From contig JAUTCQ010000009.1 of NCBI GenBank assembly GCA_030673845.1, positions 124,001-188,000 of the forward strand: a DNA stretch of 64,000 nt. Reading direction: 5' to 3'. The translations under genes were made by a program, and so were the position numbers. The notes beneath the pieces are model-generated. The model did no database searches. It was given only the letters and a program-made list of their open reading frames with translations, and was not told where the DNA came from. The DNA is from Verrucomicrobiota bacterium JB022. GTDB taxonomy: Bacteria > Verrucomicrobiota > Verrucomicrobiia > Opitutales > Oceanipulchritudinaceae. Below are positions 1 through 23,876 of the stretch, one piece after another. Position 1 is the stretch's first letter. Each line of letters starts with the position of its first letter.

Positions 1-395
1 GTGGTGCCCTGGGGGCCCGTCGCCAATAGCAGCCGCTGGCCTTCGGCAGCGACGATCACGAGGTATTGGCGCTGCCCGATCGCACGGGTTTCGAGGATCT
101 GCAGGTTGCCGGTGTCGCCGGGGCCGAAGGTGCGCCCCCCGACAGTGAAGCCTTTTTTGGCCGCGAGGATCCAGAGGCCAGCGCCCGCCAAAACGAGGAT
201 CGCGATCACCTGCACCCAGAGGCTCAGGTCGACCGCGTCGTTTTGCCGTGGGCTGGAGCGGGTCGTCGATGGGTAATACAGCTCCTGCTCGGCGGGAGGC
301 GGCTCGCTCGGGGCGGTGGTTTGGGCTTGGAGGGCAAAAGTTCCGGGCACCAGCAAGGCGAGAGCGAGGCAGAGGCACTGCCAGAGCCTAGGCAT
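1..395 (-). CDS. fliO: Flagellar export-gate protein FliO (partial, cut by left edge)
   Basis: FliO is a membrane protein that helps assemble the FliPQR core of the flagellar type III export gate. The visible 131 residues begin at the ATG at 395. They show an N-terminal hydrophobic signal-like segment (about 6-23), a Pro/Glu-rich spacer, a transmembrane helix (about 60-78), then the small cytoplasmic beta domain with 'GNLQILETRAIGQRQYLVIV', typical of FliO. The start overlaps the end of fliN by 8 bases, which supports both translational coupling and this start. The gene continues to the left, where fliP, fliQ and fliR would be expected. Identification rests on position plus the domain pattern, because FliO is poorly conserved. 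Confidence 0.85.
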   Translation of the reverse strand, partial: MPRLWQCLCLALALLVPGTFALQAQTTAPSEPPPAEQELYYPSTTRSSPRQNDAVDLSLWVQVIAILVLAGAGLWILAAKKGFTVGGRTFGPGDTGNLQILETRAIGQRQYLVIVAAEGQRLLLATGPQGT

Positions 396-651
396 GGATG
401 TCTCCCACCAGTTCGGTGATCTTGACGCCAAAATTGTTTTCGACCACCACCACTTCGCCGTAGGCAATCAGCTTGCCGTTGACGAGGAGGGAGACGGGTT
501 CCTTGGCATTCTGCTTGAGCTGCAGGACGGCGCCGGGGGTCAGCTCCACGATCTCGCGCATGGGGAGTTCGCAGGAGCCAAGCTGGATGGTGACTTCCAC
601 CTTGATGTCCATCACCCGGCTGAAATTCTTTGCGTCGCGTATATCCATCAC
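388..651 (-). CDS. fliN: Flagellar motor switch protein FliN
   Basis: An 87-residue SpoA-fold protein that forms the lower C-ring with FliM. It sets motor direction, binds the FliH-FliI export complex, and acts at the cytoplasmic face of the basal body. The sequence has the FliN signatures 'VEVTIQLGSCELPMREIVEL', 'PGAVLQLKQNAKEPVSLLVNG' and 'GEVVVVENNFGVKITEL'. It is shorter than enterobacterial FliN because it lacks the N-terminal extension, leaving only the SpoA core. It lies 16 bases downstream of fliM and overlaps fliO by 8 bases. The protein begins Met-Met, so the start could be either of two adjacent ATGs. Confidence 0.96.
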   Translation of the reverse strand: MMDIRDAKNFSRVMDIKVEVTIQLGSCELPMREIVELTPGAVLQLKQNAKEPVSLLVNGKLIAYGEVVVVENNFGVKITELVGDIHA

Positions 652-667
652 GGGGTCTTGCTGGTGG

Positions 668-1942
668 TTAGAGGTCGAGGAGTTGCTCGGTTACTTGAAC
701 GGCCACCTGGCCGTCCTGCACGCCGACTTTTCCACGATACGGCACGGTGTTATTCATGCGTAGCAGCGTTTTGTCGAGAATACCTTCGGGCATCATGACG
801 ACATCGCCTGGCCGGAGCATGAGCAGATCGCGCACGGAGCACTCAAAACCGCTCCACTCGGCACTGATCGGCACCTTGATGTGGTCGTAGGTTTTCCACC
901 AGTGCTGGGTCTTCTCGGTGGTATTGAGCGTGCTGAACTTTTTCGTCTCGTCCTGCAGTTTCTTGAGGACGGGCTGCATGGTGTAATACGGGAGCGCGAT
1001 CTCCAGCGTCTCGGTGCAATCGCCCATTACGGCTTCGATCACGACTACGAGCAGGATCGTATCGCGCGGGGAGGTCTGCAAAAAGCGGCCGTTGTTTTCG
1101 TTGCCGATGATGCTGGAGTTGAGCTCGTAAATGTCTTCCCACTGCGCGCACCATTCCTTCAGGATTACTTCGACCACGTCTTCTATCAGCACAACTTCGA
1201 GGTCGGTCAGGTAACGCTCGCCGCGCACGGAGTGGCCGGGGCCGCCGAGCAGGCGGTCGACCATCGTCATGGCGAGGCGCGGGTTGATGTCGACGATCCC
1301 CACCCCATTGAACTGCTCGAGCTTGAAAAGCGAGATGTGGGTGGGGCTGGAAATGGAGTTGGTGTGGTTTTGATACTGCGTGGTGAACAGCTTGGCCATC
1401 TTGAGCCCCACATCCATCCGCAGGAACATCGAGAGGCGGGCCGAGAGGTGGTGGACGAACTGCTCGTGGCGGATCCGCACTTGGCGCATCTCGCCTTCGG
1501 TCATGAAGACCGGGTTGGAAAAATCGAACTCTTCGATCGTGATCTTCTCGCCGCGGTTCACCCGGCGACCGTCGTGGCGAAAGATCAGCGTCTGGGGGGA
1601 GGTCCCGGCCTCCGCCATGATCGCGTCGATGTCCGTCTGGTTGAGGATGCTGTCGACGTCGGCCTGGCTAAACGCCTCCTCGTGGATCAGGTCGTCGTCA
1701 TCGTCGCCACCGCCACTGCTGCGGCTGCTGCCGCTGAGAATGCCCTGAAGGTCTTCCTCGCTGAGGATATCGTCGTCTTCGGAGGCCTCGGGCTCGCGGC
1801 TGCTGCCTTGGTTGAGGATCTTGGAAATTTCGTCTTCGCTGATCAGCTCTTCATCCATGGACGCGGCTTCGCCCTCTTCGCTGATCATCTCTTCGTCGAA
1901 GTTCAGGTCCTCTTCGTTCGGGTTTTTAGGTTCTTCCGCCAT
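668..1942 (-). CDS. fliM: Flagellar motor switch protein FliM with long acidic N-terminal tail
   Basis: FliM is the middle C-ring protein that binds phosphorylated CheY and relays the signal to FliG. At 424 residues it is about 90 longer than E. coli FliM. The extra length is an acidic, Ser-rich N-terminal tail (about residues 1-115) carrying three copies of a motif like the canonical CheY-binding 'LSQxEIDALL': 'ISEDEISKILNQ' (about 35-46), 'LSEEDLQGILSG' (60-71) and 'FSQADVDSILNQ' (91-102), the last followed by 'TDIDAIMA'. The CheC-like middle domain follows, including 'FVHHLSARLSMFLRMDVG' and the 'GGPG' segment, and then a C-terminal SpoA domain ('LMLRPGDVVMMP', 'GKVGVQDGQVAVQV'). It sits 30 bases after fliL. 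Confidence 0.97.
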   Translation of the reverse strand: MAEEPKNPNEEDLNFDEEMISEEGEAASMDEELISEDEISKILNQGSSREPEASEDDDILSEEDLQGILSGSSRSSGGGDDDDDLIHEEAFSQADVDSILNQTDIDAIMAEAGTSPQTLIFRHDGRRVNRGEKITIEEFDFSNPVFMTEGEMRQVRIRHEQFVHHLSARLSMFLRMDVGLKMAKLFTTQYQNHTNSISSPTHISLFKLEQFNGVGIVDINPRLAMTMVDRLLGGPGHSVRGERYLTDLEVVLIEDVVEVILKEWCAQWEDIYELNSSIIGNENNGRFLQTSPRDTILLVVVIEAVMGDCTETLEIALPYYTMQPVLKKLQDETKKFSTLNTTEKTQHWWKTYDHIKVPISAEWSGFECSVRDLLMLRPGDVVMMPEGILDKTLLRMNNTVPYRGKVGVQDGQVAVQVTEQLLDL

Positions 1943-6780: not shown

Positions 6781-8096
6781 ACGCCGAGGACGGCGGAGAG
6801 GAGTTGAAAGGATTGGTCGCGACCGGTGTGCTCGTGCTGTTGCTGGCGGAGGATTTTCAACAATCCTTCGCGTTTGGCAATCGCTTCGTCGAGGCGCGGG
6901 CTGGTCCCCCGGGTGTAGGCCCCGAGGTTGATCATGTCTTCGTTCTTCTTGTAGAGCGAGAGCAGGTCGCGCGCGCGGCCTACCGCCTGTTGCTGCTGCT
7001 GGTTGCAGACGGCGCGGATGAGGCGGCTGACCGAGCCGAGCACGTCGATGGCCGGGTAGTGATTGGCCGTGGCCAGCTCCCGGCTGAGCAGCAAGTGACC
7101 GTCGAGGATACCGCGCACGGTGTCGGCCACCGGCTCGTTCATGTCGTCACCTTCGACGAGCACGGTGTAAAGGGCAGTAATGGAGCCGTGTTCACCCTGG
7201 CCGGTGCGTTCGAGCAGGCGGGGAAGCTGGGCAAAAACGCTGGGCGTGTAGCCGCGGCTGGCGGGCGGTTCACCGACGGCCAGGCCGATCTCGCGTTGTG
7301 CCATGGCAAAGCGGGTCAGCGAGTCCATCAACATCATGACGCTGGCCCCTTGATCGCGGAAATACTCGGCAATGGCCGTGGCGAGGAATGCGGCCCGCAG
7401 GCGCAAAGGCGCAGCCTGGTCGGAGGTCGAAACGACGACGACGCTACGGGCGAGGCCTTCTTCGCCGAGGTCGTTTTCGATAAATTCGCGCAATTCGCGG
7501 CCACGTTCACCCACGAGGCAGACGACGTTGATATCGGCCTGCGCGCCGCGGGCGATCATGCCCATGAGGGTGGACTTACCGACGCCGGAGCCGGCAAAAA
7601 CGCCGAGACGCTGCCCCACCCCGACGGGCGTAAACAGGTCGATGGCACGCACGCCGGTGGTAAAGGATTCGCGGATGGGCTGGCGCAACATCGCATTGGG
7701 GGGGTCGCGATGCAGGGGCACGTGGTCGGCAGCATCGAGTGGGCCCTTGCCATCCATCGGGCGGCCCAGGCCGTCGATCACGCGGCCTACGAGTGCGGGG
7801 CCGACGGGCACATGCGATTGGCCCTCGGCCGCCACGGTGCGGCAACCGGGGTGGATGTGCTGCGTGGCCCAGTAGGGCATCAACAAGAGGCGATTGCCGC
7901 GAAACCCGACCACTTCGGCCACAATGCGGTGGTCGCGCTGGTCGGACTGGATCTCGATGATGTCGCCGACCCCGGCTTCGGGGCCTTCGGACTCGATGAT
8001 CAGGCCGCGCACTTCGACGACCCGGCCGGAGCGCTCTACCGTGGTGGCTTTGCGGACGCGGCCTTCGAGCCAGTCCATGCGGTCCATCAGGTTCAT
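6777..8096 (-). CDS. fliI: Flagellum-specific ATPase FliI
   Basis: The ATPase that energises substrate unfolding and chaperone release at the flagellar export gate, with FliH and FliJ. The 439-residue product has an F1-like N-terminal barrel, Walker A 'GSGVGKST' (169-176), a Walker B region 'ASVMMLMDSLTRFA', and the family segments 'ERGRELREF' and 'PASRGYTPSVFAQLPRLLER'. Length and motifs are normal. It is flanked by 4-base overlaps with fliH and fliJ. Confidence 0.98.
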   Translation of the reverse strand: MNLMDRMDWLEGRVRKATTVERSGRVVEVRGLIIESEGPEAGVGDIIEIQSDQRDHRIVAEVVGFRGNRLLLMPYWATQHIHPGCRTVAAEGQSHVPVGPALVGRVIDGLGRPMDGKGPLDAADHVPLHRDPPNAMLRQPIRESFTTGVRAIDLFTPVGVGQRLGVFAGSGVGKSTLMGMIARGAQADINVVCLVGERGRELREFIENDLGEEGLARSVVVVSTSDQAAPLRLRAAFLATAIAEYFRDQGASVMMLMDSLTRFAMAQREIGLAVGEPPASRGYTPSVFAQLPRLLERTGQGEHGSITALYTVLVEGDDMNEPVADTVRGILDGHLLLSRELATANHYPAIDVLGSVSRLIRAVCNQQQQQAVGRARDLLSLYKKNEDMINLGAYTRGTSPRLDEAIAKREGLLKILRQQQHEHTGRDQSFQLLSAVLGV

Positions 8097-11320: not shown

Positions 11321-11806
11321 CTAGACCTGCATCCGCATCAGTTCTTGAAATGATTCCACCAACTTGTTTCGGACTTCGACCATCATGGTGAAGGCCAGGC
11401 CCGACTCGCGCATGCTGATCATGGCCTGGTGGAGGTTGGTGCTCTCGCCCGTCATCAGCTGGCGCACCTCGTGAGAGGCCACGTCCTGCTTCTGGTCGAC
11501 GGCGCGCACGAAGTCGCGGGCAAGATTTTCCACCCCGAGGGCCGGGGCGCCGGAAAGATTGGGCAGTCCGCTGCGAGCCGCTCCTTCGACGCCGTCGTTT
11601 TTCCACGGGGCATCGGTCGGGCGCTGGGTCGCAGTGTTGAGCTTCGACATCCAGTCCTGGGCGTCGAAGTTGGCACCGGCCTTATCGAGCCCGGGCAGGC
11701 CGGCGGTGGGCCCTTGGAGCTGGCGCGCCTGCTCCATCGCGCGCTGGGGGTCCAGCCGGGTGAGGAGCGAAGGGTTGAGGGCGGAAATGGAGGGAATGGC
11801 GGCCAT
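11321..11806 (-). CDS. fliE: Flagellar hook-basal body protein FliE (long form)
   Basis: FliE joins the MS ring to the rod and is among the first rod proteins exported. The conserved C-terminal part is clear ('VENLARDFVRAVDQKQDVAS', 'MTGESTNLHQAMISMRESGL', 'FTMMVEVRNKLVESFQELMR'). At 161 residues it is about 55 longer than the usual 100-110; the extra length is a Gly/Pro/Asn-containing region between about 25 and 90. It follows flgC by 17 bases in the common flgB-flgC-fliE order. Confidence 0.95.
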   Translation of the reverse strand: MAAIPSISALNPSLLTRLDPQRAMEQARQLQGPTAGLPGLDKAGANFDAQDWMSKLNTATQRPTDAPWKNDGVEGAARSGLPNLSGAPALGVENLARDFVRAVDQKQDVASHEVRQLMTGESTNLHQAMISMRESGLAFTMMVEVRNKLVESFQELMRMQV

Positions 11807-11823
11807 GGGTCAGGACGAAAGGG

Positions 11824-12240
11824 CTAGATTTGCATGGCCTGGAGGGCCATCTGGCGGGAGGTGCGGATCACGCTGAGGTTGGCTTCGTAGGCGCGGGAGA
11901 CGTTGATGAGGTCGACCATCTCCATGGCGGTTTTCACGTTGGGGAGCGCCACCATGCCGTTGTCGTCGGCGTGCGGGTGGTTGGGCATGTAGACGCGCTC
12001 GCCGGGGGTGTTGTCGACCGAGACCTCGGAGACGCGCACGCTGCGGGAGGTGTTTTGCGGCTCCATGCCGCCGATCTTGGGCAGGTAGCTCTCGAAGACG
12101 ACCTGACGGCGCTGGTAGGGTTGCCCATCCACATCGCGCGTGGTTTGCGCGTTGGCCAGGTTCTGCGCCACGACGTCCATCTGCAGGCGGTGGGCTTGCA
12201 GGGCATCGGTGGTGTAGCGGGCGGCGGGGATGAGTTCCAT
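11824..12240 (-). CDS. flgC: Flagellar basal-body rod protein FlgC
   Basis: A proximal rod subunit exported by the flagellar apparatus. The 138-residue product has the N-terminal rod motif 'TTDALQAHRLQMDVVAQNLA', a mid region 'YQRRQVVFES', the FlgC-typical 'YMPNHPHADDNGMVALPNV', and the C-terminal helix 'MVDLINVSRAYEANLSVI'. It lies 24 bases after flgB. Confidence 0.98.
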   Translation of the reverse strand: MELIPAARYTTDALQAHRLQMDVVAQNLANAQTTRDVDGQPYQRRQVVFESYLPKIGGMEPQNTSRSVRVSEVSVDNTPGERVYMPNHPHADDNGMVALPNVKTAMEMVDLINVSRAYEANLSVIRTSRQMALQAMQI

Positions 12241-12264
12241 GGTTTAAAGCGGCGGGTTTACGGT

Positions 12265-12663
12265 TCAGCTCGGCTGGACGCGGCCGGTGATGGCGGTCTC
12301 GAGGTGCTTCAGCGAGGTGCTGACGTATTGAGTCATGAACTGATAGCGCAGGGCGTTTTCGTTGATGGCCTGCATTTCTTCTTCGATGGCGACGTTGTTG
12401 CCATCGGGGCCCACCGCACGGGCGCTGGTGTCGGTCTCGACCGAGAGCGGAAAATTCTGCCCGTTGCCCAACTGGCCCGACTGGAGTTCACGACGGAAGT
12501 TGGCCTCGAAGTCCGAATTGAGGTCGACCCGCTTGTAGCCCGGCGTCGAGGCATTCGCGAGGTTGGCCGCCAGCGCCTGTTGCCGCATCGCCGTGGCGTC
12601 GAGCCAGACGCGGGCGGCGGCAAGATTGGGCTGGTTGGCGATGGATTCGAGCATGGCCGTCAT
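12265..12663 (-). CDS. flgB: Flagellar basal-body rod protein FlgB
   Basis: The first rod protein and first gene of the long minus-strand flagellar operon. It contains the rod motif 'ATAMRQQALAANLANASTPG' followed by 'YKRVD', and the C-terminal 'QAINENALRYQFMTQYVSTS' helix. The first ATG is at 12663; a second ATG three codons on (12654) fits usual FlgB N-termini better, and a sigma-54-like site would put the transcript start at about 12655. Neither start has a Shine-Dalgarno sequence. Confidence 0.96.
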   Translation of the reverse strand: MTAMLESIANQPNLAAARVWLDATAMRQQALAANLANASTPGYKRVDLNSDFEANFRRELQSGQLGNGQNFPLSVETDTSARAVGPDGNNVAIEEEMQAINENALRYQFMTQYVSTSLKHLETAITGRVQPS

Positions 12664-12666
12664 TGA

Positions 12667-12681
12667 GCAAGGGCAATACCA
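12667..12681 (-). promoter_or_regulatory. Candidate sigma-54 (-24/-12) promoter of the flagellar operon
   Basis: On the minus strand the sequence TGGTATTGCCCTTGC has GG at 12680-12679 and GC at 12668-12667 with the standard 10-base spacing; TTGC matches the -12 box fully and TGG the -24 box. The predicted start is about 12655. A sigma-54 activator gene at 20255 in the divergent cluster makes this site plausible. The near-leaderless transcript is a reason for caution. Confidence 0.5.
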
Positions 12682-12835
12682 GTTCCGCGATCACACAACT
12701 TAAAAACTTGAAAACCAACGTCTTGAAAATCTTTAGGAACTTTCTCCACGACCTGCCCGGAAAGTTTTTCCGCAGCTCGGCGAGCGGGGTTACACCCACC
12801 TCGTAAAGTAATCTACGTATTCCACATAATGCCCC

Positions 12836-12862
12836 TAAAACCTCAGGTGCTTAAGCCGAATT
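12836..12862 (+). promoter_or_regulatory. Candidate FliA (sigma-28) promoter of cheR
   Basis: TAAA, then 15 bases, then GCCGAATT, compared with the FliA consensus TAAA-N15-GCCGATAA. The -10 element ends 9 bases before the cheR ATG, so the transcript would be nearly leaderless. Three further sites with the same -10 core lie in the cluster, at 18113, 21990 and 23850. Confidence 0.5.
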
Positions 12863-12871
12863 TATACCTGC

Positions 12872-13735
12872 ATGGCACGTCAGCCCGCGGTCACATCTTC
12901 ATTCAGCATCGGTCCTCTCAGTCAGGAGGAATACGACCGTTTTAGCGAAGCTATTTACCGGCTCGCACGCATCAACCTCGGCCCCCACAAGAAAGAGCTG
13001 GTCACAGCCCGGCTGTCCAAGCGCCTCCGTGCGTTAGGCATGACGCGCTTCAGCGACTACTACAACTTTATCACCAGTAAGGCGGGCAGCGAGGAACTGA
13101 CTAATTTCGTCGACGCGATTTCGACCAATCACACGTTTTTCTTCCGCGAGGTGCTGCACTTCGAGTTCATGGCCTCCCAGGTCGTGCCGGAGCACATCAA
13201 GCACCACGGGCGCCGGCCGCTTCGAGTATGGAGCGCGGCGTGTTCGAGCGGTGAAGAGCCCTACTCCATCGCCATCACCTTGGCTGAAACCCTCCCAATG
13301 GGTTCGCACGAGAACTTCGAGGTGATCGCTACCGACATCTCGACCAAGGTCCTGAACAAGGCGAAGGAGGGCATCTATCCCGCCTCGCGCCTGCAATCGA
13401 TGCCGCTGGAGGTGATCAAGCGTTACTTCACCCCGTCGCGTGGGCGCGATGAAGAGCCGCACTTCCAGGCGCGCCCCCAGTTGCGCCAGCGCATTCAATT
13501 TCAGCACCTCAACCTGTTTTCCAACTACCCATGGCGCGAGCCGTTTGATATGGTGTTTCTCCGAAACGTCATGATCTACTTCGACCGTGATACTCAGGTA
13601 GACTTGATCCAACGCATCCTCCCGTGGATTCGCCCCGGCGGCTACCTCATTACCGGCCAAAGCGAATCGCTGGGCCACAGTGTTCAGGCCCTGAAAGTTC
13701 TGCGCCCCTCCATCCATCAGAAGACCCATGGCTGA
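12872..13735 (+). CDS. cheR: Chemotaxis protein methyltransferase CheR
   Basis: CheR transfers methyl groups from S-adenosylmethionine to glutamates on chemoreceptors, the adaptation arm of chemotaxis. The 287-residue product has an N-terminal helical domain, the conserved 'NHTFFFRE' (86-93), the SAM-binding 'VWSAACSSGEEPYSIAI' (about 119-134), 'FEVIATDIST', and 'FDMVFLRNVMIYFD' near the C-terminus. It opens the plus-strand cluster, diverges from flgB across 208 bases, and overlaps cheB by 8 bases. Confidence 0.98.
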   Translation: MARQPAVTSSFSIGPLSQEEYDRFSEAIYRLARINLGPHKKELVTARLSKRLRALGMTRFSDYYNFITSKAGSEELTNFVDAISTNHTFFFREVLHFEFMASQVVPEHIKHHGRRPLRVWSAACSSGEEPYSIAITLAETLPMGSHENFEVIATDISTKVLNKAKEGIYPASRLQSMPLEVIKRYFTPSRGRDEEPHFQARPQLRQRIQFQHLNLFSNYPWREPFDMVFLRNVMIYFDRDTQVDLIQRILPWIRPGGYLITGQSESLGHSVQALKVLRPSIHQKTHG

Positions 13736-14900
13736 TCTCTCCTCCCCCATCCGCGTTCTGCTCTGCGACGACTCGGCCGTCATCCGGTCTTCCGTGGCTC
13801 AAATGCTGCGCCGCGACCCGGAGCTCGAAGTCGTCGGCACCGCCGAGAACCCTTATCAGGCCCGCGACCAGATCCTGAAGCTCGACCCTGAAGTGTTGCT
13901 GCTCGACCTGGAAATGCCGCGCATGGACGGGCTGAGCTTCCTCAGCATCATCATGCGCGAGCGCCCGATGCCGGTCGTGATCTTTAGCTCGCTGAGCCAG
14001 CAGGGCTCGCACGTCGCCTGGGAGGCGATGCAGCGCGGGGCGATCGAAGTGCTCGGCAAGCCGCGCAGCCCGCGCGAGCTGCAAGACCTGGCGCCGATCC
14101 TCATTTACAAGCTGAAGGCTGCTGCCTTGGCCGGTCGCAGCGCGAGCTTCCGCAAGCATGTGGATGCCGCCATCGAGGCTGGCAAGGCCCCTTCCCCGGT
14201 GGCTGCCATTAAAAACAGCCAACCCGCTACCGCCTTTTCGCAAAAACCGCAGACCAAGGAGCAGGTCGACTGCTCGCACCTCGACCCGAAGGCGCTCATC
14301 CTGCTCGGCGCCTCCACCGGCGGCACCGAAGCGCTGAAAAACGTGCTGGTCGACTTGCCGGCCGACATGCCGCCGATCCTGATCGTGCAGCATATCCCGG
14401 CCTATTTTTCCGCCAGTTTTGCCAACCGTCTCGACAGCCTTTGCAAGCTGCGGGTAAAGGAGGCGCGTCACGGCGACGTGTGCCAGCCCGGCCACGTGCT
14501 CGTCGCACCCGGTAATTACCACATGACGGTGCACGCTGCGGCGGGCGGCTACCGCGTAAAGCTCGACGACGGGCCGCGTGTATGGCACCAGCGCCCAGCC
14601 GTCGACCTGCTGATGAAGAGCGGCGCGCAGACGGCGGGCATGCATGCCATTGCCGGCGTGCTAACGGGCATGGGCCGAGACGGGGCGGAAGGTTTGCTTG
14701 CCTTGCGCCGCCGCGGTGCGATAACGTTCGCTCAAGATGAAGCGACCTCAGTAGTTTACGGTATGCCCCGGGCTGCCAAAGAGGTCGGAGCCGCCCAGCG
14801 CGTGCTCCCTCTCCATCAAATGGCTGCCTTCCTGCAGGAAGCCACTCGCACCCGTCGCCGCACCTCCCCGCCTACCGAACATGAAGTCTCCAGTGTCTGA
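13728..14900 (+). CDS. cheB: Chemotaxis response regulator / protein-glutamate methylesterase CheB
   Basis: CheB removes methyl groups from, or deamidates, chemoreceptors when phosphorylated by CheA. The receiver domain (1-125) has the acidic pair D14/D15 and phospho-acceptor D60 ('LLLDLEMPRMDG'). The esterase domain (about 195-375) has 'GASTGGTEAL' (catalytic Ser), 'IVQHIPAYFS' (His) and 'GMGRDGAEGL' (Asp). Architecture and length (390 residues) are standard. Its end overlaps the next gene by 20 bases. Confidence 0.98.
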   Translation: MADLSSPIRVLLCDDSAVIRSSVAQMLRRDPELEVVGTAENPYQARDQILKLDPEVLLLDLEMPRMDGLSFLSIIMRERPMPVVIFSSLSQQGSHVAWEAMQRGAIEVLGKPRSPRELQDLAPILIYKLKAAALAGRSASFRKHVDAAIEAGKAPSPVAAIKNSQPATAFSQKPQTKEQVDCSHLDPKALILLGASTGGTEALKNVLVDLPADMPPILIVQHIPAYFSASFANRLDSLCKLRVKEARHGDVCQPGHVLVAPGNYHMTVHAAAGGYRVKLDDGPRVWHQRPAVDLLMKSGAQTAGMHAIAGVLTGMGRDGAEGLLALRRRGAITFAQDEATSVVYGMPRAAKEVGAAQRVLPLHQMAAFLQEATRTRRRTSPPTEHEVSSV

Positions 14901-16794
14901 TTCCGTCCACTACGATCCGCTGCAATTCGTAGTAGATCAGGATCTGCAAGTCGTGAAGCTCGACCCTGTCTTGCTTCCGGCTTTCGGAGGTGAGCAGGCG
15001 GCCCCGACGCTGGAACAAGTCTTCAAAAGCATCAACCCGGAATGGCAAGTTCCGGGCCCTTCGTTTTTTCAAGGTGAGAGCAACTCGACCTTCCTGCCTT
15101 GGGAGCCGGGCCCGCCGCCGAGCCCTTACGGCATGCGCCTGCAGGCATTGCGGGCCGGAGATTTGATTTGTTGTTCGTTGATGCCTGCCCTCGGTTCCGC
15201 CCAGGCGGTGGCCGACGCAGGGCTGCAGGAGATCCCGGAAGGCGACCAGTGGTCGGCTACGCTCTTCATGCGGCTGAAAAAGTCGGAAAACAAGATCAAG
15301 ATCTACAGCCACCACTTCCCGGGCTTCATGTATCAGCAGCGGGCGGATCTTTCGTTCTCGTATCTCGACCCGAGCTTGCGCGAGATCTTCGGACTCGATG
15401 TGAGCCTGCTCCAGCGTAGCGGCAGTTCGTTCCTCGACCTGATCTACGAGAAGGATCGCGATTTTTACCTGCATGAAGTCCAGAAAGGCTCGCAGACGGG
15501 TGAGCGCTTTACGCTGACGTATCGGCTCAAACTGCCCCACACCGGCCAGATCATCTACCTGCAGGACTATCGCTCGGCCGTAAAGTCGGCCAACGGGCTG
15601 CTGCTGGGATACGAAGGGGTGTGGCTCGACATCACCCGCCAGGCAGTGGCGGAAAAGCGCCTCTCCAGCGCGGGCTGGAAGGAAAGCCTCGCCACCCTCA
15701 CCAGCGGTCTGCTGCACGACTTCAAGAACAGCATGACGGGGATCGGCACCCTCAGCGAGCTGTATTGCCGCACGATGGACCGTGCGCACCCGTGGCACGA
15801 GGGGATGACGATGATCCGCAAGAATGCCCTCGAAGCCCAGAAGATCGTGCAGCGCATGATCGACCTCAATCGCGAGGAGGCTGGGCGACGCAATTACCAC
15901 AACTTGCGTGAGTTGGTACGCGACCAGATCGAGCTTGTCCGCATCGTGCTGCCCAAGCACATGCATATCGAGACCCAGATCACCGAGCAGGATATCCCCG
16001 TCTACCTCGACGAGGTCGCCTTCCGCCAGATGGTGCTCAACCTCGTGATCAATAGCCGCGACGCGAGCCCGCACGACGGCACCATTACCATCCGCATGTT
16101 GCCGGCGGAGACGGGCCAGGTGATCGATGGCGAAGCGCCTGCCGGCTTCGTCTGCCCCAAGGACGGGGCGCTGATCGAGATCGCCGATCAGGGCCACGGC
16201 ATCCCACCGGAAAACCTGCCCCACGTCTTCAACCCGTATTATACGACGAAGGAAATTTCCAAGGGTTCGGGCCTCGGGCTCTACAATACCCGCATTTTTA
16301 TCCAGGACCATGGGGGCGAGATCACAATCCAGAGCGAGCAGCATATGGGCACCACGATCCGCCTGTTTCTGCCCACGGCCGACTTTACCGAATCGCTCAG
16401 CAGCGTGGGCGGCAAACACGAGCGCGGCCAGTCCGAGCGGCGCACGGTGATCATCTTCCAGCAGGCCGATGCGGCGGACTTCACCGACCAGCTGCGCCAG
16501 CAGGGCTGCGAAGTCATTTCCTTCCAGCAGGCCAGCCGCCTCTTGCGCTACCTGCCCGATGTGACGTCGCGGCACAATCTGCTCGTACTCCTGGGGCCGC
16601 GTTTCACGCCAGCGATGCAAGAGCTTGCACGCCACGTAGAGGCCAATTATCCGTCTCTGCCCATGGTGCACGTGCACCCGGCGCACGACGACGACCAGTT
16701 GCCTGCCGAATTTGAGCACCTGCTCGACCTCACCATACCCCCGGGCGGCAATCACCGCCGCCTCGTCATGCAAATCCTTGATCTCCTAGGCTAG
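14881..16794 (+). CDS. PAS sensor histidine kinase with C-terminal degenerate receiver-like domain
   Basis: The 637-residue product has no transmembrane segment, so it is probably cytosolic. An N-terminal region without a recognisable domain (1-140) precedes a PAS domain (about 145-255), a dimerisation/phospho-acceptor helix with 'LLHDFKNSMTGIGTLSEL' (H279), and an ATPase domain with 'VLNLVINSRDAS' (N box), 'IADQGHGIPPENL' (G1), 'FNPYYTTKEISKGSGLGLYN' (F and G2 boxes). Residues about 512-637 look like a receiver fold ('RRTVIIFQQADAADFTDQLR') but lack the acidic pair and a phosphorylatable Asp. With the sigma-54 activator at 20255 it resembles a FlgS/FlgR-type pair; the partnership is inference. 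Confidence 0.88.
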   Translation: MKSPVSDSVHYDPLQFVVDQDLQVVKLDPVLLPAFGGEQAAPTLEQVFKSINPEWQVPGPSFFQGESNSTFLPWEPGPPPSPYGMRLQALRAGDLICCSLMPALGSAQAVADAGLQEIPEGDQWSATLFMRLKKSENKIKIYSHHFPGFMYQQRADLSFSYLDPSLREIFGLDVSLLQRSGSSFLDLIYEKDRDFYLHEVQKGSQTGERFTLTYRLKLPHTGQIIYLQDYRSAVKSANGLLLGYEGVWLDITRQAVAEKRLSSAGWKESLATLTSGLLHDFKNSMTGIGTLSELYCRTMDRAHPWHEGMTMIRKNALEAQKIVQRMIDLNREEAGRRNYHNLRELVRDQIELVRIVLPKHMHIETQITEQDIPVYLDEVAFRQMVLNLVINSRDASPHDGTITIRMLPAETGQVIDGEAPAGFVCPKDGALIEIADQGHGIPPENLPHVFNPYYTTKEISKGSGLGLYNTRIFIQDHGGEITIQSEQHMGTTIRLFLPTADFTESLSSVGGKHERGQSERRTVIIFQQADAADFTDQLRQQGCEVISFQQASRLLRYLPDVTSRHNLLVLLGPRFTPAMQELARHVEANYPSLPMVHVHPAHDDDQLPAEFEHLLDLTIPPGGNHRRLVMQILDLLG

Positions 16795-16806
16795 CCGCCC
16801 TACCCC

Positions 16807-18063
16807 ATGAAAGAGCTGCGTTCAGTCCTCATCCTCGATGACGACAAAATCATTCTGATCGCCCTGCGGGAAACGGTGGCGCCGGAAGGATACGAGGTCG
16901 TCACGGCCGATCGCCCGCACGATGCCATCAAGCTGATGGAAGAGCGCGAGTTTTCGATCATCATCTCCGACCAGCGTATGCCGGAGATGACAGGGCTCGA
17001 ATTTTTCGAGCATGCCAAGCGCCTGCAGCCCAACGCCTCCCGCATCCTCATCACGGGGGTGTTGACGCTCAACACCATCATCCAGGCCGTCAACGAAGGC
17101 GAGATCTTCCGCTTCGTGGCCAAGCCCTGGATCCGGGAGGAGATCATTGCCACCCTCCACAACGCCCAGCAGCGCTACACCCTCATTACCGCCAACCAAC
17201 GCCTGCAGGAAGACGCCCTGCAGCTCAACGACACGTTGACGGAAACCAACGCCAAGCTGGAGGAGAAATACGAGGAGCTGAAGGGCATCCACAAGGAGCT
17301 GGATGCCGCGCACCTGGCGCTGAGCAACAATTTCGACAAGTCGCTCCAGCTTTACCTGAAGCTGCTCGACAGCTTCAACCCGCTGCTGGCCGAGGAGACG
17401 CGCACCATTGCCGAGCTGTGCCAGCGCATGATCGAGCATCCCAACTTCCCCGATGCCGATGCCCATACGCTCAAGGTCAGTGCATGGCTCAAGAACATCG
17501 GGATGCTCAGCGTCCATCGCGACTTGATCCTGCGCTTCCGCAATCGTCGGGGGGAGCTAACGGACGACGAGGTGACGCGGATTGAGCACACGCCTATTTA
17601 TGCCCAGTCTCTAGCGTCGTTTGTCGACCACCTCAAGGACGTGGGCGTGACCATTCGTGCCCAGTACGAGCGTTGGGACGGCAAGGGCTTTCCCGATGGG
17701 CTGGCGGGCAACCTGATCCCCCGCCCCGCGCGGTTCCTGCAGGTGGCCGTCTTTTACGTGGAGTGCGGGCTTTCACGCGAAGATGCCCTGGCGATGATTC
17801 TGGACGAGTCTGGCGCGCGCTTTGCTCCGGAGGCGGTGCAAATCTTTGTCGAGGCCACCCGCCCGGCCCGCCTGCCCCGCACTTTGCGGGAGTTGAGCCC
17901 GGCGGAGCTGCGCACCGGCATGGTTTTGGCCAAGGATGTCTACAGCGCCGCCGGCCTGCTGCTGATCCCTGCCGGCAAGACGCTGGATCAGCATCTGATC
18001 AAAAAGGTGCGCGACATCAATGAGGCCTGCGAACTCAACCACCGCCTGATTGTTTACAATTAA
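16807..18063 (+). CDS. Response regulator with degenerate HD-GYP domain
   Basis: The 418-residue product has an intact receiver (1-125; 'LILDDDKI', D55 in 'IIISDQRMPEMTG', K108 in 'VAKPW'), a coiled coil (about 126-185) and an HD-GYP-like domain (about 185-350). In HD-GYP phosphodiesterases the metal-binding HD dyad reads 'LLHDIG'; here it is 'WLKNIG' (K229-N230). The downstream signature is 'QYERWDGKGFPDG' rather than 'HHExxDGxGYP'. Loss of HD suggests no cyclic-di-GMP hydrolysis and a binding or scaffold role. It begins 12 bases after the kinase gene, so it is a likely partner of that kinase. Confidence 0.85.
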   Translation: MKELRSVLILDDDKIILIALRETVAPEGYEVVTADRPHDAIKLMEEREFSIIISDQRMPEMTGLEFFEHAKRLQPNASRILITGVLTLNTIIQAVNEGEIFRFVAKPWIREEIIATLHNAQQRYTLITANQRLQEDALQLNDTLTETNAKLEEKYEELKGIHKELDAAHLALSNNFDKSLQLYLKLLDSFNPLLAEETRTIAELCQRMIEHPNFPDADAHTLKVSAWLKNIGMLSVHRDLILRFRNRRGELTDDEVTRIEHTPIYAQSLASFVDHLKDVGVTIRAQYERWDGKGFPDGLAGNLIPRPARFLQVAVFYVECGLSREDALAMILDESGARFAPEAVQIFVEATRPARLPRTLRELSPAELRTGMVLAKDVYSAAGLLLIPAGKTLDQHLIKKVRDINEACELNHRLIVYN

Positions 18064-18112
18064 GACCCTCATTCTGAACAAGATTTAAGCGTGGAAAATC
18101 ACGTTGTCGGTC

Positions 18113-18139
18113 TCAAGGCGCCAAGGGCTCAACCGATAT
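18113..18139 (+). promoter_or_regulatory. Candidate FliA (sigma-28) promoter of cheW
   Basis: TCAA, 15 bases, then ACCGATAT, in the 120-base gap before cheW. The predicted leader is about 40 bases. The pattern is shared with the site at 23850, including the TCAA variant of the -35 element and the TATA that follows CCGA. Confidence 0.55.
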
Positions 18140-18183
18140 AGAGACTATCACCCGGTTTATCACCTGCTAACACGATTGCTCCC

Positions 18184-18681
18184 ATGCCGACCACGGACGT
18201 AGCACCCACGGAAAAGAAAAAAGTTTTTCAAGGTGGCAAATTTCTCACCTTCCGCCTCTGCGATGAATCTTATGGCATCGCGGTGCTGAAGATCCGCGAG
18301 ATCATCCGCCTCCAAAAGATCACGCCGGTGCCGCAAATGCCGCACTACACACGTGGCGTTATCAACCTTCGCGGCAAGATCATCCCCGTGATCGACATGC
18401 GCCTGAAGTTTGCCCTGCCCAAGGGCATCGAAGACGAGCGCACGTGCATCGTCGTCGTGCAGGTCAATATCCGGGGCGACGAGCAAGTCTCCGTCGGCCT
18501 GATCGTGGATGCGGTGGAAGAAGTCACCACCATCTCCGGCGACCATATCGAAAAGAACCCGGAGCTGGGCACCACCCGCAAGAACGAGTACATCCACGGC
18601 ATCGCCAAGATCGACCAGGAGGTGAAGACCTTGCTGGATATCGACAAGCTGATCGCCGAGGAAGACGTCGTGCGCATGTAA
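18184..18681 (+). CDS. cheW: Chemotaxis coupling protein CheW
   Basis: CheW bridges chemoreceptors and the kinase CheA in the receptor array. The 165-residue product has the typical CheW beta-barrel segments 'FLTFRLCDESYGIAVLKIRE', 'VPQMPHYTRGVINLRGKIIP', 'VIDMR' and 'VGLIVDAVEEVTTI'. The N-terminal 20 residues are a charged extension. It is preceded by a FliA-like promoter and followed after 13 bases by a gene of unknown function. No cheA lies in the window, so its kinase partner must be encoded elsewhere. Confidence 0.97.
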   Translation: MPTTDVAPTEKKKVFQGGKFLTFRLCDESYGIAVLKIREIIRLQKITPVPQMPHYTRGVINLRGKIIPVIDMRLKFALPKGIEDERTCIVVVQVNIRGDEQVSVGLIVDAVEEVTTISGDHIEKNPELGTTRKNEYIHGIAKIDQEVKTLLDIDKLIAEEDVVRM

Positions 18682-18694
18682 GGAGCCTTGCCTG

Positions 18695-19171
18695 ATGAAC
18701 CCCATTCTGTTCAGCACCCTGACTTACGCGGCCGAGAAGGTGGTCGACGGCATCGCCTCCATCGGCTCTTCCAGCCGCAAGGCCGATGCCGCCGAATTTG
18801 CCCGCCTGCTCGAAGCCCAACAAGCCAGCCAGCCGGAAAGCCCGCTCGCGCGGCTTCTGGCCGACGAGGGGGTGCAGAGTGTGGAGGATCTTCAGAACCT
18901 GATCGACCGGCTGATGGCCCAGTTGCGCGCAGCCTTCCTCCAGTCGGGGGCGAGCGGCGACGGCTCCAACCTTACTTTATCTCCTCCCAACGCCCCGGGC
19001 GGCTCCTGGAGCCTGACCGACGGGCAGCATAGCCTGGAGTTGACTTCAGGCTCCGCGCTGGCGGCGCAAGCCGACCAATGGCAAGAGCTGCAGGCTCTCG
19101 CGGCCCAATGGGAACAAAATCCGGCACTTTCCCGCCAAGAAGTGCTGAAAACGGTCGATATTCACGCCTAA
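18695..19171 (+). CDS. Unknown protein between cheW and cheD
   Basis: I do not recognise this 158-residue product. It has no clear signal peptide or transmembrane helix. Residues 30-95 are Ala/Leu/Gln/Glu-rich and predicted helical; the middle is Gly/Ser/Pro-rich ('SGDGSNLTLSPPNAPGG'); the end is again helical and Gln/Ala/Trp-containing. The size and helix-linker-helix layout would suit a small adaptor or exported flagellar protein, but no motif supports either. It lies 13 bases after cheW and 14 bases before cheD, so it is co-transcribed with them. Confidence 0.7.
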   Translation: MNPILFSTLTYAAEKVVDGIASIGSSSRKADAAEFARLLEAQQASQPESPLARLLADEGVQSVEDLQNLIDRLMAQLRAAFLQSGASGDGSNLTLSPPNAPGGSWSLTDGQHSLELTSGSALAAQADQWQELQALAAQWEQNPALSRQEVLKTVDIHA

Positions 19172-19185
19172 CTTTATTGCCTTCC

Positions 19186-19752
19186 ATGTCTGTTTCTTCG
19201 GTAGCAACGCCCACCAACCCTGCCAACAACGGAGGCGCCCCCAGCCTTGGGTCGCTCCTCTCCGAACGGATCGTTGTTGGCGTCGGTGACATGGCCGTCT
19301 CGAATCGCGCCTACATCACGATCAGCACCTATGCGCTGGGTTCCTGCGTCGGCGTGATCGCTTACGATCCGGCGGTCCAGACGGGGGGCATCCTGCACTT
19401 GATGCTGCCGGAGAGCAAACTCTCCCCCGAGCGCGCCCGCCAGCACCCGGCCGTTTTTGCCGACACGGGCATCCCGCAGTTCCTGAAGAACCTGGTGTCT
19501 CTCGGCGCACGCCCCGGCCGCATGGTCGTCTTTATCGGCGGCGGCGCGCTGACGCTCAATCAGGACAACGACCTCTTCAAGATCGGCGAACGCAATGTGG
19601 CGGCCACCCGCCAGATCCTGGCGCACGAGGGTATCCAGCCCAAGTATTCGTCCGTCGGCGGCAACGCCAACCGCAGCGTGCACCTCGAGATCGGCACCGG
19701 CAAGATGACCTTGCGCATGCCGCAGGGCACCAAGTCGGTCGTGCTCGGGTAG
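19186..19752 (+). CDS. cheD: Chemoreceptor glutamine deamidase CheD
   Basis: CheD deamidates glutamines on chemoreceptors and, in Bacillus-type systems, binds CheC to feed back on CheA. The 188-residue product has the catalytic Cys in 'TYALGSCVGVIAYD', the catalytic His in 'GGILHLMLPES', and the family segments 'VVFIGGGALTL', 'IGERNVAATRQIL' and 'SSVGGNANRSVHLEIGTG'. The start at 19186 gives the first residues 'MSVSSVA'; a longer reading frame upstream overlaps the previous gene and has no CheD similarity. Phosphatase-family partner CheX is encoded at 23943. Confidence 0.96.
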   Translation: MSVSSVATPTNPANNGGAPSLGSLLSERIVVGVGDMAVSNRAYITISTYALGSCVGVIAYDPAVQTGGILHLMLPESKLSPERARQHPAVFADTGIPQFLKNLVSLGARPGRMVVFIGGGALTLNQDNDLFKIGERNVAATRQILAHEGIQPKYSSVGGNANRSVHLEIGTGKMTLRMPQGTKSVVLG

Positions 19753-19774
19753 AGGTGTGGCTGCCACCCTCTCC

Positions 19775-19818
19775 ACGACGCCCGGCAAAAAAGTATCCCT
19801 TTGGTGCAAGGGCGTCGT
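19775..19818 (+). other. Hairpin between cheD and the following unknown gene
   Basis: Perfect 9-base arms ACGACGCCC (19775-19783) and GGGCGTCGT (19810-19818) enclose a 26-base A-rich loop in the 105-base gap after cheD. No T-tract follows, so an intrinsic terminator is unlikely. It may set the relative level of downstream genes or act as a leader structure. Confidence 0.4.
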
Positions 19819-19857
19819 TGAAAAGCGGCCACAAAGTCCTTTAGCTTGGAGGGAGTT

Positions 19858-20238
19858 ATGTTGCTGAACGAGGTACTCTACATCGATTTGCTGGAGCGGC
19901 ATCTGCTGGAGGCTTACCTCGACCCCGACAGTGAGCTGGGGCAGCAGATCGAGCGGCAACGGTTTTTCGACTTTGCCCGCCACGAGGCGACTTTGCGCCT
20001 CAGCTGGCCGCACCCGGCCGGGATGGGCACCTCTTCCCTACGCGTGGTCATCCGCCATCACCCGGCCCGAGACGACAACGCACAGACGTTTGAAGTGCGC
20101 TTGTTGATGCCTGCGCTGGACCTCGACCGATCTTTCCTGCAAATTGCGGGTAGCGAGTATGCCTTGCGGCCTCATGTCGAGGCCACGGGGCAGCACGTTT
20201 TCATGGCCTGGCAGCGCGGTCTCAGCACTACCGGCTAA
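19858..20238 (+). CDS. Unknown protein upstream of the sigma-54 activator
   Basis: A 126-residue product I do not recognise. It begins 'MLLNEVLYIDLLERHLLEAY' and has predicted helix followed by beta strands ('LRVVIRHHPARDDNAQTFEV'), with no signal peptide, membrane helix or known motif. The ATG at 19858 is chosen because a strong GGAGG lies 5 bases upstream, one of the few clear ribosome binding sites in this window; a TTG four codons earlier is in frame. It ends 16 bases before the activator gene, so the two are probably co-expressed. Confidence 0.75.
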   Translation: MLLNEVLYIDLLERHLLEAYLDPDSELGQQIERQRFFDFARHEATLRLSWPHPAGMGTSSLRVVIRHHPARDDNAQTFEVRLLMPALDLDRSFLQIAGSEYALRPHVEATGQHVFMAWQRGLSTTG

Positions 20239-20254
20239 CCTACCCCTTGGCGCG

Positions 20255-21973
20255 ATGGCATTCGAAAAGATATTGGTGGTCGATGACGACCTGATCATCC
20301 GCAAGACCTTGACGGCCCACCTGCAAAAGCAGCACTACAAGGTCGCCAACGCGGAGAATATTGCCGACGCGCTCAAGATCCTGCAGCAAGACGCTTTCGA
20401 CCTGATCCTGCTCGACGAGCGTTTGCCCGACGGGATGGGCTCGGACTTGCTGGGAGACGTGAAACAGACGGCTTCGTCCAGCGCCTTCACGGTCATGATG
20501 TCGGGCTATGCCACGCTCGACGGCGCACTCCAGTGTATGCGCCAGGGGGCCTTCGACTACATCGTGAAGCCGTTTTCGCTGGAGCAGATCGACGTCGCGC
20601 TCAAGCGTGCGGAAAATTACGACCAGCTCGTCCGCGTCAACCAGTATTACACCAAGGAGCTGAACCCGAAGAGCGAGCTGCTCGGCCAGTCGCCCGCCGT
20701 GCTGCAGCTGAAGAAGGTGATCCGCAAGGTTGCCGCGACCGAGGCCACCGTGCTGGTGCTGGGCGAAAACGGCACCGGCAAGGAGCTGGTGGCCAACGAG
20801 CTGCACCGCCTGAGCAATCTGGCGGACCGGCCTTTTATTAAGGTCAATTGCGCGGCCATCTCCGAGAGCCTGATCGAGAGCGAATTTTTCGGGCACGAAA
20901 AGGGCGCCTTTACCGGCGCCGCCGCCCGCAAGCCGGGTCGCTTCGAACTCGCCGACGGCGGCACGATCCTGCTCGACGAAATCGGCGAAATTTCCCCGCG
21001 CATCCAGGCCAAGCTTTTGCGCGTTTTGCAGGAGCGTGAATTCGAGCGTGTCGGCGGCACAAAAACGATCTCCGTGAAGGTGCGCGTGATCGCCACCACC
21101 AACCGCGACCTGCTGGAGGCGGTGCGGCGCGGCGAATTCCGCGAAGACCTTTATTACCGGCTGAGCGTGTTCCCCATCGATGTGCCTTCGTTACGCGAGC
21201 GGGGTGAAGACATCCTGCTGCTCGCCCGGTCCTTTGCCCAACGCTTTGCCCAAAAGCACCGGCAGGCAGGCAAGGGCTTTACGCCGGATGCGGAGCAGCG
21301 CCTGATGCAGCACCCGTGGCCCGGCAATGTGCGCGAGCTGCACAATACGATCGAGCGGGCGGTGATCCTGACCGAGCCGAACCAGCCGATCGAAGTCATT
21401 TCCCTCCATTTGCCCCGCCCTCGCCAAGCGGCACCTTCGCCCTACGGGGCGCCTCCTGCTGGCGGCTACCCGCCGGCAGGCGTCTACGGCGGCTACCCGC
21501 ATGGCGTCGGCGATACACCCCCGATCGTCAATGGCGGCACATTTGCGGCGGGCAGCCAACCACCCCCGGGCTACGGCTTCCCCTACCCCGGCTACATGCC
21601 GCCCAATGCCGGTTACCCGCAGTATCCGCAGACTCCGCCCCCTCAGCACTACGCACCGCCCCCGGCCCAGATGCCTCCCCCGGAGCCGAGCCGTACCGTG
21701 CCCACGATGCCCGACCCGCTCGACTTCGGCGATGACGACGACGAGGCGGCAGACGAAAAGCCGGTGACGCCTCGGGCCGCCGCCACGCCTTCGCCAGAAA
21801 CTGACAGCGGCGAGCTGATGAGCCTCGAAGATCTGGAACGCCGCCAGATCCTCAAAGCTTTGGAGGTGACGGAAGGCAATCGCGCCAAGGCTGCCGAAAT
21901 GCTGAAAATTTCTACCCGGACATTGCGTAACAAAATCAACCAATACCGGGATGAGGGGTTGGTTATTGAATAA
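20255..21973 (+). CDS. Sigma-54-dependent response regulator (NtrC/FlgR type) with Pro/Tyr/Gly linker
   Basis: A bacterial enhancer-binding protein that, when phosphorylated, remodels RNA polymerase-sigma-54. The 572 residues comprise a receiver (1-120; D54 in 'ILLDERLPDG', K105), an AAA+ domain (about 142-385) with Walker A 'GENGTGKE' (170-177), the sigma-54-contacting 'GAFTGA' (217-222) and 'GTILLDEIGE', and a Fis-type helix-turn-helix (about 522-572, 'GNRAKAAEMLKISTRTLRNK'). Between them, residues about 391-520 form a low-complexity linker of repeated Pro, Gly and Tyr followed by an acidic stretch; NtrC proteins usually have a short linker here. The start at 20255 opens directly into the receiver. 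It probably controls hook-basal-body genes. Confidence 0.95.
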   Translation: MAFEKILVVDDDLIIRKTLTAHLQKQHYKVANAENIADALKILQQDAFDLILLDERLPDGMGSDLLGDVKQTASSSAFTVMMSGYATLDGALQCMRQGAFDYIVKPFSLEQIDVALKRAENYDQLVRVNQYYTKELNPKSELLGQSPAVLQLKKVIRKVAATEATVLVLGENGTGKELVANELHRLSNLADRPFIKVNCAAISESLIESEFFGHEKGAFTGAAARKPGRFELADGGTILLDEIGEISPRIQAKLLRVLQEREFERVGGTKTISVKVRVIATTNRDLLEAVRRGEFREDLYYRLSVFPIDVPSLRERGEDILLLARSFAQRFAQKHRQAGKGFTPDAEQRLMQHPWPGNVRELHNTIERAVILTEPNQPIEVISLHLPRPRQAAPSPYGAPPAGGYPPAGVYGGYPHGVGDTPPIVNGGTFAAGSQPPPGYGFPYPGYMPPNAGYPQYPQTPPPQHYAPPPAQMPPPEPSRTVPTMPDPLDFGDDDDEAADEKPVTPRAAATPSPETDSGELMSLEDLERRQILKALEVTEGNRAKAAEMLKISTRTLRNKINQYRDEGLVIE

Positions 21974-21989
21974 ATAGAGGATTGGCTTG

Positions 21990-22015
21990 TAAAAAATCGT
22001 CAGGTTTGCCGATCT
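21990..22015 (+). promoter_or_regulatory. Candidate FliA (sigma-28) promoter before the REC-HDOD gene
   Basis: TAAA, 14 bases, GCCGATCT (or GTAA with 15 bases), in the 52-base gap after the activator gene. The -10 element ends 10 bases before the ATG at 22026. This is weaker than the other three sites because of the spacing and the CT at its end. Confidence 0.4.
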
Positions 22016-22025
22016 ATCTCCTCAG

Positions 22026-23819
22026 ATGGCCACCGTTCTGATTGTCGAAGACGATCTTCTGGCGCGGACGCTCCTCAAGCGGTTTCTTGAGGGTGCCGCG
22101 CACCAGGCATGCTTTGCCGATACCGTTTTGGGCGGCTGGCAGCTGCTGCAGGCAACGATCAATGTCGACATGGTGGTGCTCGACAATGTGTTAGGTGAGG
22201 AATTCGGGTGGCAGTTTTTGCGCGACTTGCGCAGTGATCCCATCTTTCGCGAGCTGCCCGTGCTTGTCTACACCGCCACTTCCGACCGCGGCTCCGTCAT
22301 CAAATACCTGAAGATGGGCGTCCAGAACATCCTCGTGAAGCCTTACGTGAAGGGCCGCGTGATGGAAGAGCTGGACAAGGCATTGAATTTTTCGTGGCGC
22401 GACAAGCTGTTCGAGCCGGTGGAGCACGTCTGCCATCGCCTGGACCTCGACGAGGATGAGTATTACCGGATGCTCCACCTCAACGCCGAGACGATCCTGG
22501 ATGTGGTGCACAGCCTCAAGGGCGCTATCGGCACCACCCGGATGCGCAAGAGCACGTCTTACCTGGAGAAGTTTACCAGCATCTCCCGCGTGCTCGGGGT
22601 CTCCGCGCTCGACGACCTCACCGACCGTCTGCAAAGGCACTTGCTGGAGGAAGATCTCAATCTTTCGCTGACCGCGCTGCGCCAGGCGGAGGTGATCGCC
22701 AAGCTGATGCAGCATCGCTTTGCCGTCCACTTCCAGATCCAAAGCGACAAGGACCTCGGGGAGAGCATCAGTCAGAAGGAGGCCGTTGGGGCCGCCCGCC
22801 GCGAAGTCCGCAAACAGGAATGGACGCGGCAGGCGCGCAATGCCGCCCGCGAAGCGTGGCAGCAGATGACGCACGCGCCTTTTCACGATTTTGCCCGGCT
22901 CATCACGCACGCGCAAATACCCCCTGCCCGTTGGGATGCCGCAACCTTGCCCCCGGGCCAGCGCTACCTCGGCCCCAGCCTGCGCCCTTGGCTCCACCGC
23001 CCGCTGAGTGAAGAAAACACGCTCGACTTCCTGTCGCAGATCCCGGGTCTTCCAGTGCACCTTGGGCGAATCGTCTCGACGGAAAACGACCGCGTCTCGG
23101 GCGCGCGGGCCTTAAAAAAAGCGCTCGATATCTTTGGAGCCGCGCCTTTGCTCGCCGCCATGCTGCTGAGCTACTGGCAAGACGAGGCGCGACGCCTGCA
23201 CAACCCGCTCGACCTGCGCCCGCTGGCCAAATACACCCTCGCCAACGTCATCCTCTATTGGGAGTTGAGCCGTAAGCTGCCGCTGGCCCGCGAGGTGCCG
23301 CTGGCCGGCCTGATGCCCTTGCTGGGCCAGTGGCTGTGGGCTACGACCCAACCGGTGCGCTATGCAGTGCTGCTCGCACAGGCGCAGGCCAGCATGACGG
23401 CCTTTATGGAGGGTGCTTACCGGATTTTTGCCGAATCGGCCGAGGAAACGGCCTTCCGCTGGCTGATGGAAAACCAGGCCCCGGCCGCCCTCGTCGCCTC
23501 CGCCCGCGACTTTCAACGGCCCGAGCAGGCGGAGGGGCACCTGGCCCGGATTGTGGCCTCGATGGCCCAACTGGCGGATGCACTCAACGCCGGCATGTCG
23601 TTCGGCTTCCGCGGCTACTTGCAGGAAGATGGGACCGATGCGTTTGTCCATGCCAGCGCCTGGCAGGTCTTGAAAACGTGCGATGTGGAGATGTCGCTCG
23701 CCCCGGCCGAGCTGCTGAGCGCGCTCGATCCGCTGTTGAAGCGTATCCCGCGGCAGGTGGAACTGATGTTGGAGCTACCCTCGATGCCGCTCTTGCCGGA
23801 GGCCTATGCCACCGTTTGA
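22026..23819 (+). CDS. Receiver protein with Hpt-like and HDOD-like regions
   Basis: The 597-residue product starts with a receiver domain (1-120; acidic pair D9-D10, D53 in 'MVVLDNVLGEEFG', K105 in 'LVKPY'). A helical region follows with 'DVVHSLKGAIGTTRMRKS' (H162), resembling the HxLKG phosphotransfer motif of Hpt domains. From about 330, 'IPGLPVHLGRIVS' and 'SGARALKKALDIFGAAPLLA' resemble the start of an HDOD domain, a helical signalling domain without HD catalysis. The Hpt and HDOD calls are inference from short motifs. The layout suggests phosphate capture or relay controlling a protein-protein output. It lies in the chemotaxis cluster but has no enzyme domain. Confidence 0.75.
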   Translation: MATVLIVEDDLLARTLLKRFLEGAAHQACFADTVLGGWQLLQATINVDMVVLDNVLGEEFGWQFLRDLRSDPIFRELPVLVYTATSDRGSVIKYLKMGVQNILVKPYVKGRVMEELDKALNFSWRDKLFEPVEHVCHRLDLDEDEYYRMLHLNAETILDVVHSLKGAIGTTRMRKSTSYLEKFTSISRVLGVSALDDLTDRLQRHLLEEDLNLSLTALRQAEVIAKLMQHRFAVHFQIQSDKDLGESISQKEAVGAARREVRKQEWTRQARNAAREAWQQMTHAPFHDFARLITHAQIPPARWDAATLPPGQRYLGPSLRPWLHRPLSEENTLDFLSQIPGLPVHLGRIVSTENDRVSGARALKKALDIFGAAPLLAAMLLSYWQDEARRLHNPLDLRPLAKYTLANVILYWELSRKLPLAREVPLAGLMPLLGQWLWATTQPVRYAVLLAQAQASMTAFMEGAYRIFAESAEETAFRWLMENQAPAALVASARDFQRPEQAEGHLARIVASMAQLADALNAGMSFGFRGYLQEDGTDAFVHASAWQVLKTCDVEMSLAPAELLSALDPLLKRIPRQVELMLELPSMPLLPEAYATV

Positions 23820-23849
23820 GGCATTACTGGAGAATTTTGCAGCAGAGAC

Positions 23850-23876
23850 TCAAATTTAGCAGGCCTGAGCCGATAT
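23850..23876 (+). promoter_or_regulatory. Candidate FliA (sigma-28) promoter of cheX
   Basis: TCAA, 15 bases, GCCGATAT: seven of eight -10 positions match the consensus GCCGATAA. It lies in the 123-base gap before cheX, giving a leader of about 60 bases. This is the best of the four candidate sites in the cluster. Confidence 0.6.

Follow-up and report, generated by a model that had tools for sequence, protein, structure and literature searches.

A FliM with four CheY-site-like motifs in its acidic tail and a candidate fused CheY partner in a verrucomicrobial bacterium

Introduction

The CheY-binding site of FliM is normally single; in Escherichia coli and Salmonella it is LSQAEIDALL, at residues 5-16. 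It has long been asked how FliM converts the binding of CheY-P into a steep directional switch. In Caulobacter, FliM carries an internal motif at residues 47-62 that is bound by CheY homologues and by Cle proteins (PMC5677366). Motors that combine FliM with FliY (or FliN) have EIDAL motifs on more than one C-ring protein (PMC6946799). We found no description in the open literature of repeated CheY sites within one FliM.

Here we analyse a 64,000-nucleotide stretch (the window) of the genome of Verrucomicrobiota bacterium JB022, in which the FliM tail carries four CheY-site-like motifs, M1 to M4, that extend across 80 residues and end with the canonical one. Compared with the FliM of E. coli and Salmonella, M3 and M4 have the same hydrophobic positions, Gln8 and Asp12, and the genome encodes a receiver with a matching face, but there is one site in those species and four segments here. 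As in Caulobacter, a motif for CheY-like proteins lies deep in an extended N terminus, whereas the Caulobacter study has one motif, ILNQDEIDSLLG, and describes no array (PMC5677366). The locus shares with FliM and FliY/FliN motors the presence of several CheY-type motifs per switch unit, although there they sit on different proteins and here on one FliM chain (PMC6946799). A natural FliM with extra sites offers a test case for whether site number, as against local CheY-P concentration, sets sensitivity.

Four motifs in an extended acidic tail

The open reading frame at 668-1942 on the minus strand encodes a FliM of 424 amino acids, with matches to the middle domain (PF02154, E=9e-36) and to the C-terminal SPOA domain (FliMN_C, PF01052, E=3e-13), and it is the single FliM in the whole 4.35 Mb genome. 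The neighbouring fliN (388-651, minus strand; FliMN_C E=2e-24) lacks the motif. The FliM core begins at residue 139, so that the tail (residues 1-138; 1529-1942, minus strand) is 138 amino acids long, compared with 43-62 in most relatives from the same order, and its net charge is -33 over residues 1-110. A low-confidence AlphaFold model of FliM shows the tail as disordered except for short helices at M1, where the low-confidence helix covers residues 36-44, and at M4.

We scored the tail with a PSSM trained on 44 distinct motifs from other FliMs, for which the leave-one-out median of true sites was 29.4 bits. M4 (ILNQTDIDAIMA, residues 99-110; 1613-1648, minus strand) scored 28.1 bits and is identical, with the same score, in the sister species; the initial annotation had read it as a partial motif, 'TDIDAIMA', but it is full and canonical. 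The other three, also on the minus strand, are M3 (AFSQADVDSILN, residues 90-101; 1640-1675) at 16.3 bits, M1 (LISEDEISKILN, residues 33-44; 1811-1846) at 7.7 bits and M2 (ILSEEDLQGILS, residues 59-70; 1733-1768), the weakest, at 2.7 bits. Their counterparts in the sister species are FFNQNDVDDILN at 14.2, NLSEDDIANLLN at 17.3 and ILSEESISDILK at 2.1 bits, respectively. The tandem array that the initial annotation had proposed thus stands, with four motifs: when the same acidic tail was shuffled with its composition kept, 0 of 3000 shuffles had three or more non-overlapping sites that reached 6 bits. Against shuffled remainders, the single-motif P values were 0.0005 for M3, 0.015 for M1 and 0.05 for M2, and the same test in the sister species gave 0.0005 for M1, 0.0025 for M3 and 0.13 for M2. 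M1, M3 and M4 exceed chance; M2 is borderline and not significant on its own, and the case for it is its conserved position.

The place of M4 before the core is held by ILSQSDIDALMAEA and LLNQTDIDALIAEA in two single-motif relatives (L006 and L067, respectively). M4 is the complete, canonical and ancestral site, the orthologue of the one motif found in other genera, and M1, M2 and M3 are the additions. M3 and M4 overlap by three residues, ILN, which are common to both motifs, so the tail offers at most three separate sites and M3 and M4 cannot both be fully occupied at the same time.

Conservation and spread of the extra motifs

A single further genome of the genus was sampled (G040, the sister species), and it has all four motifs with their places and patterns kept. 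Between the two species, identity is 67% in motif columns, 38% in the linkers between motifs and 88% in the core. The FliM-bearing genera elsewhere in the family (g6, g69 and g5) have one motif. Among the 91 genomes of the order that were read, the four-motif form occurs in the two genomes of the genus only, and two or more sites that reach 6 bits occur in four, namely these two, G012 and G015. About 105 further FliMs read beyond the family have one motif or none, except for the two two-motif genomes; outside the order, one or none was the count in about 19 FliMs. The survey covered Verrucomicrobiota together with seven loci (Verrucomicrobia, Lentisphaerae or Victivallales) from the profile of a closer alignment, and the rarity of the array applies within these groups.

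The two two-motif FliMs resemble the present one in carrying several motifs on a single chain. G012 (family f13; L012) has two motifs 39 amino acids apart, and G015 (family f16; L015) has an overlapping pair nine amino acids apart, which is the M3-M4 spacing. Unlike the tail described here, neither has SE-type motifs like M1 and M2, and each form is represented by one genome. In a tree of FliM cores G012 and G015 group together (97/91) within an unresolved cluster that includes the genus, so the M3-M4 pair is compatible with both a shared origin and independent gain.

A probable fused CheY that keeps the FliM-contact residues

In the E. coli complex, FliM residues L6, Q8, I11, D12 and L14 contact CheY residues A90, I95, A99, Y106, V108 and K119 (PMC3774744). 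M3 and M4 have the hydrophobic residues at positions 6, 11 and 14, Gln8 and Asp12 (contacts as in Table 3 of PMC3774744). In both species M1 and M2 keep the hydrophobic residues and have Glu at the Gln8 position but lack Asp12; Gln or Glu at position 8 and hydrophobic residues at positions 6, 11, 14 and 15 agree with the E. coli CheY-FliM contacts (PMC3774744, Table 3), and the type of residue that M1 and M2 lack is the partner of CheY Lys119. A two-hybrid test of Caulobacter FliM showed that CleA no longer binds after the double change ID57WA (PMC5677366), and by analogy M1 and M2 would be expected to bind more weakly or to differ in specificity.

The initial annotation had stated that the neighbouring cluster has no stand-alone CheY. 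This is literally true, but CheY is there as a receiver-receiver-STAS-like fusion, encoded at 24556-25728 on the plus strand. The protein has two Response_reg stretches, REC1 (residues ~1-124) and REC2 (~137-255), followed by a C-terminal region (~258-372) that we call only STAS-like because the Pfam STAS match lies below its cut-off (16-18.5 versus 22.6 bits) and the best PDB profile matches, all to STAS proteins, are weak (E=0.01-0.1). A single-sequence fold of the fusion was poor (pLDDT 45). REC1 keeps the whole phosphorylation pocket (D12, D13, D57, T87 and K109) and, on the FliM face, A90, A99, Y106, V108 and K119, with the changes K92R, I95V and K122R. REC2 is by its sequence a pseudoreceiver in which the phospho-acceptor Asp is replaced. 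Among the receivers of its own genome that were read (about half of 80), REC1 matches E. coli CheY best and alone keeps the FliM-contact residues, which gives no support to the earlier idea that the extra motifs serve different receivers. These features suggest that REC1 works like CheY, though it is fused and not a single-domain protein. We found no description in the literature of an architecture that joins a CheY receiver, a degenerate receiver and a STAS-like domain.

The CheY gene comes directly after cheX, which encodes a CheX-family CheY-P phosphatase (23943-24506, plus strand; PF13690, E=4e-18). In this cluster (12872-25728), domain matches identify cheR, cheB, a PAS histidine kinase, a REC-HD protein and cheW at 12872-18681 on the plus strand, and sequence features identify CheD at 19078-19752. 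The CheW domain matches twice in the genome, in the cluster CheW and in one CheA. This single CheA, found through its CheW domain and confirmed in L080, maps about 50 kb ahead of the window. Two receivers on contig C13 (122-133 amino acids) were considered as stand-alone CheY candidates and rejected: the one at 14457-14837 (L045) lacks the FliM-face residues, and the one at 6798-7166 is outside the best CheY matches.

Covariation of the FliM motif and the fusion

Across the 91 genomes of the order whose FliM tail was read, a strong FliM motif and the full fusion occur together in 47, both are absent from 40, four (G634, G654, G336 and G648) have the motif only, and none has the fusion only (Fisher p=1e-21 for co-occurrence, with kinship ignored). 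In 25 of the 40 genomes that have neither (families f2, f12 and f19), we found a protein with REC2 and the STAS-like end in which REC1 is unmatched; the motif is absent from the FliM tails of f2 and degenerate in those of f12 and f19. Eight such proteins that were read, from f2 and f12 (L104-L111), have a different N terminus of the cNMP-binding type in place of REC1, and both of the two that were scanned against Pfam matched cNMP_binding (E=1e-8 and 4e-12). In family f14, motif and fusion were lost jointly on several branches: in G066 beside G692 (98/98), in G644 beside G013 (weak), and further in G616, in G656 and in the pair G459/G652. The genus g77 shows decay of the fusion in progress, with a fusion pseudogene carrying several stops and no FliM match in G420, a fusion fragment with a stop and a kept FliM motif in G648, and no fusion but a kept motif in G336.

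Loss of chemotaxis as a whole may contribute to this covariation. Still, that one domain of a retained protein is exchanged favours a direct link between REC1 and the motif. Because of the covariation, we take REC1 to be the likely ligand of the canonical motif; the covariation bears on that motif and by itself does not extend to M1-M3. The order-wide pairing and the domain swap make the fusion at 24556-25728 the probable motor-binding CheY of the order, identified from genomes alone.

Two further observations concern genomes that lack the motif. The motif-less tails of f2 (L019, L020, L023-L029 and L163-L178) share a conserved DESFD(L/I/V)SE(I/L) segment, which may be a leftover of the CheY motif that has taken on a new role. 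L157, L158 and L156 (from G646, G656 and G616, respectively) have FliM cores on long branches, and both the motif and the CheY fusion have been lost in these genomes; the long branches suggest relaxed constraint after chemotactic switching was lost.

A proposed multi-site docking strip and its alternatives

The motifs, one of them canonical, their conservation within the genus, the contact residues of CheY and the motif/receiver covariation are all seen directly and give good support to the suggestion in the initial annotation that the tail is a CheY-docking region. On balance, we think it somewhat probable that the tail works as a docking strip with several sites for one CheY-P, M4 being the main site and M1, M2 and M3 auxiliary ones. 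The ligand would be the phosphorylated REC1 of the fusion, and M4, the inherited site, would place CheY-P beside the FliM core. M3 would act as an alternative register of the M4 helix, the two never being filled together, and M1 and M2 would be weaker capture sites farther out on the flexible tail, which would raise the local CheY-P concentration and rebinding and then pass CheY-P to M4. We infer CheY-P binding by M1-M3, the relative affinities of the sites and their effect on switching. A gain in avidity from several sites is plausible, although M1 and M2 lack the Asp12-type residue and so may be weak. With three extra copies, the switch protein may offer the direction-switching signal a larger landing area. 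An extension of this model, which we regard as unlikely, is a multivalent switch in which four segments per FliM are arrayed round the C-ring and the CheY fusion perhaps oligomerises through its STAS-like domain; if true, many weak contacts would make the switch unusually steep or long-lived.

That M4 works alone, and that M1-M3 are decayed or drifting duplicates in a tolerant acidic linker with no binding reason for their presence, seems to us rather improbable but deserves the most weight among the alternatives. One site suffices in sister genera, the motif copies are alike at just 16-22 of 36 nucleotides, M1 and M2 lack Asp12, and M2 reaches only 2-3 bits. Drifting duplicates would nevertheless have to account for motifs that diverge less between the two species than the linkers do, for the 17-bit M1 of the sister species and the 14-16-bit M3 of both, and for an overlapping pair with the M3-M4 spacing in another family (G015). 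A role of the tail in C-ring assembly or solubility, with the likeness of M1 and M2 arising from a Glu/Asp/Leu/Ile/Ser make-up, is very improbable: the tail is indeed strongly acidic, and G018 and G052 also have acidic FliM tails, with no more than one motif, but the array does not arise when the tail is shuffled with its composition kept, and the motif positions are retained in the sister species despite linker turnover.

The extra motifs could also serve another partner, such as FlhG or another receiver, and leave M4 to CheY, which we hold to be an improbable reading. In monotrichous bacteria FlhG interacts with FliM/N through the FliM N terminus, and this contact in polar flagellates (PMC12826062) lends the idea some credit, as does the fact that M1 and M2 form a consistent subclass in both species, with SE at positions 7-8 and no Asp12. 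It is weakened by the finding that none of the receivers read other than REC1 keeps the FliM-contact residues, and by the lack of flhG beside the divergent flhF within the flhA-flhF-fliA-motAB stretch, the only stretch to which this statement applies. The protein encoded there at 11671-12852 (L081; contig C9 of G000) is a divergent FlhF-like GTPase that scores below the family cut-off; its gene comes after flhA and is followed by fliA, motA and motB.
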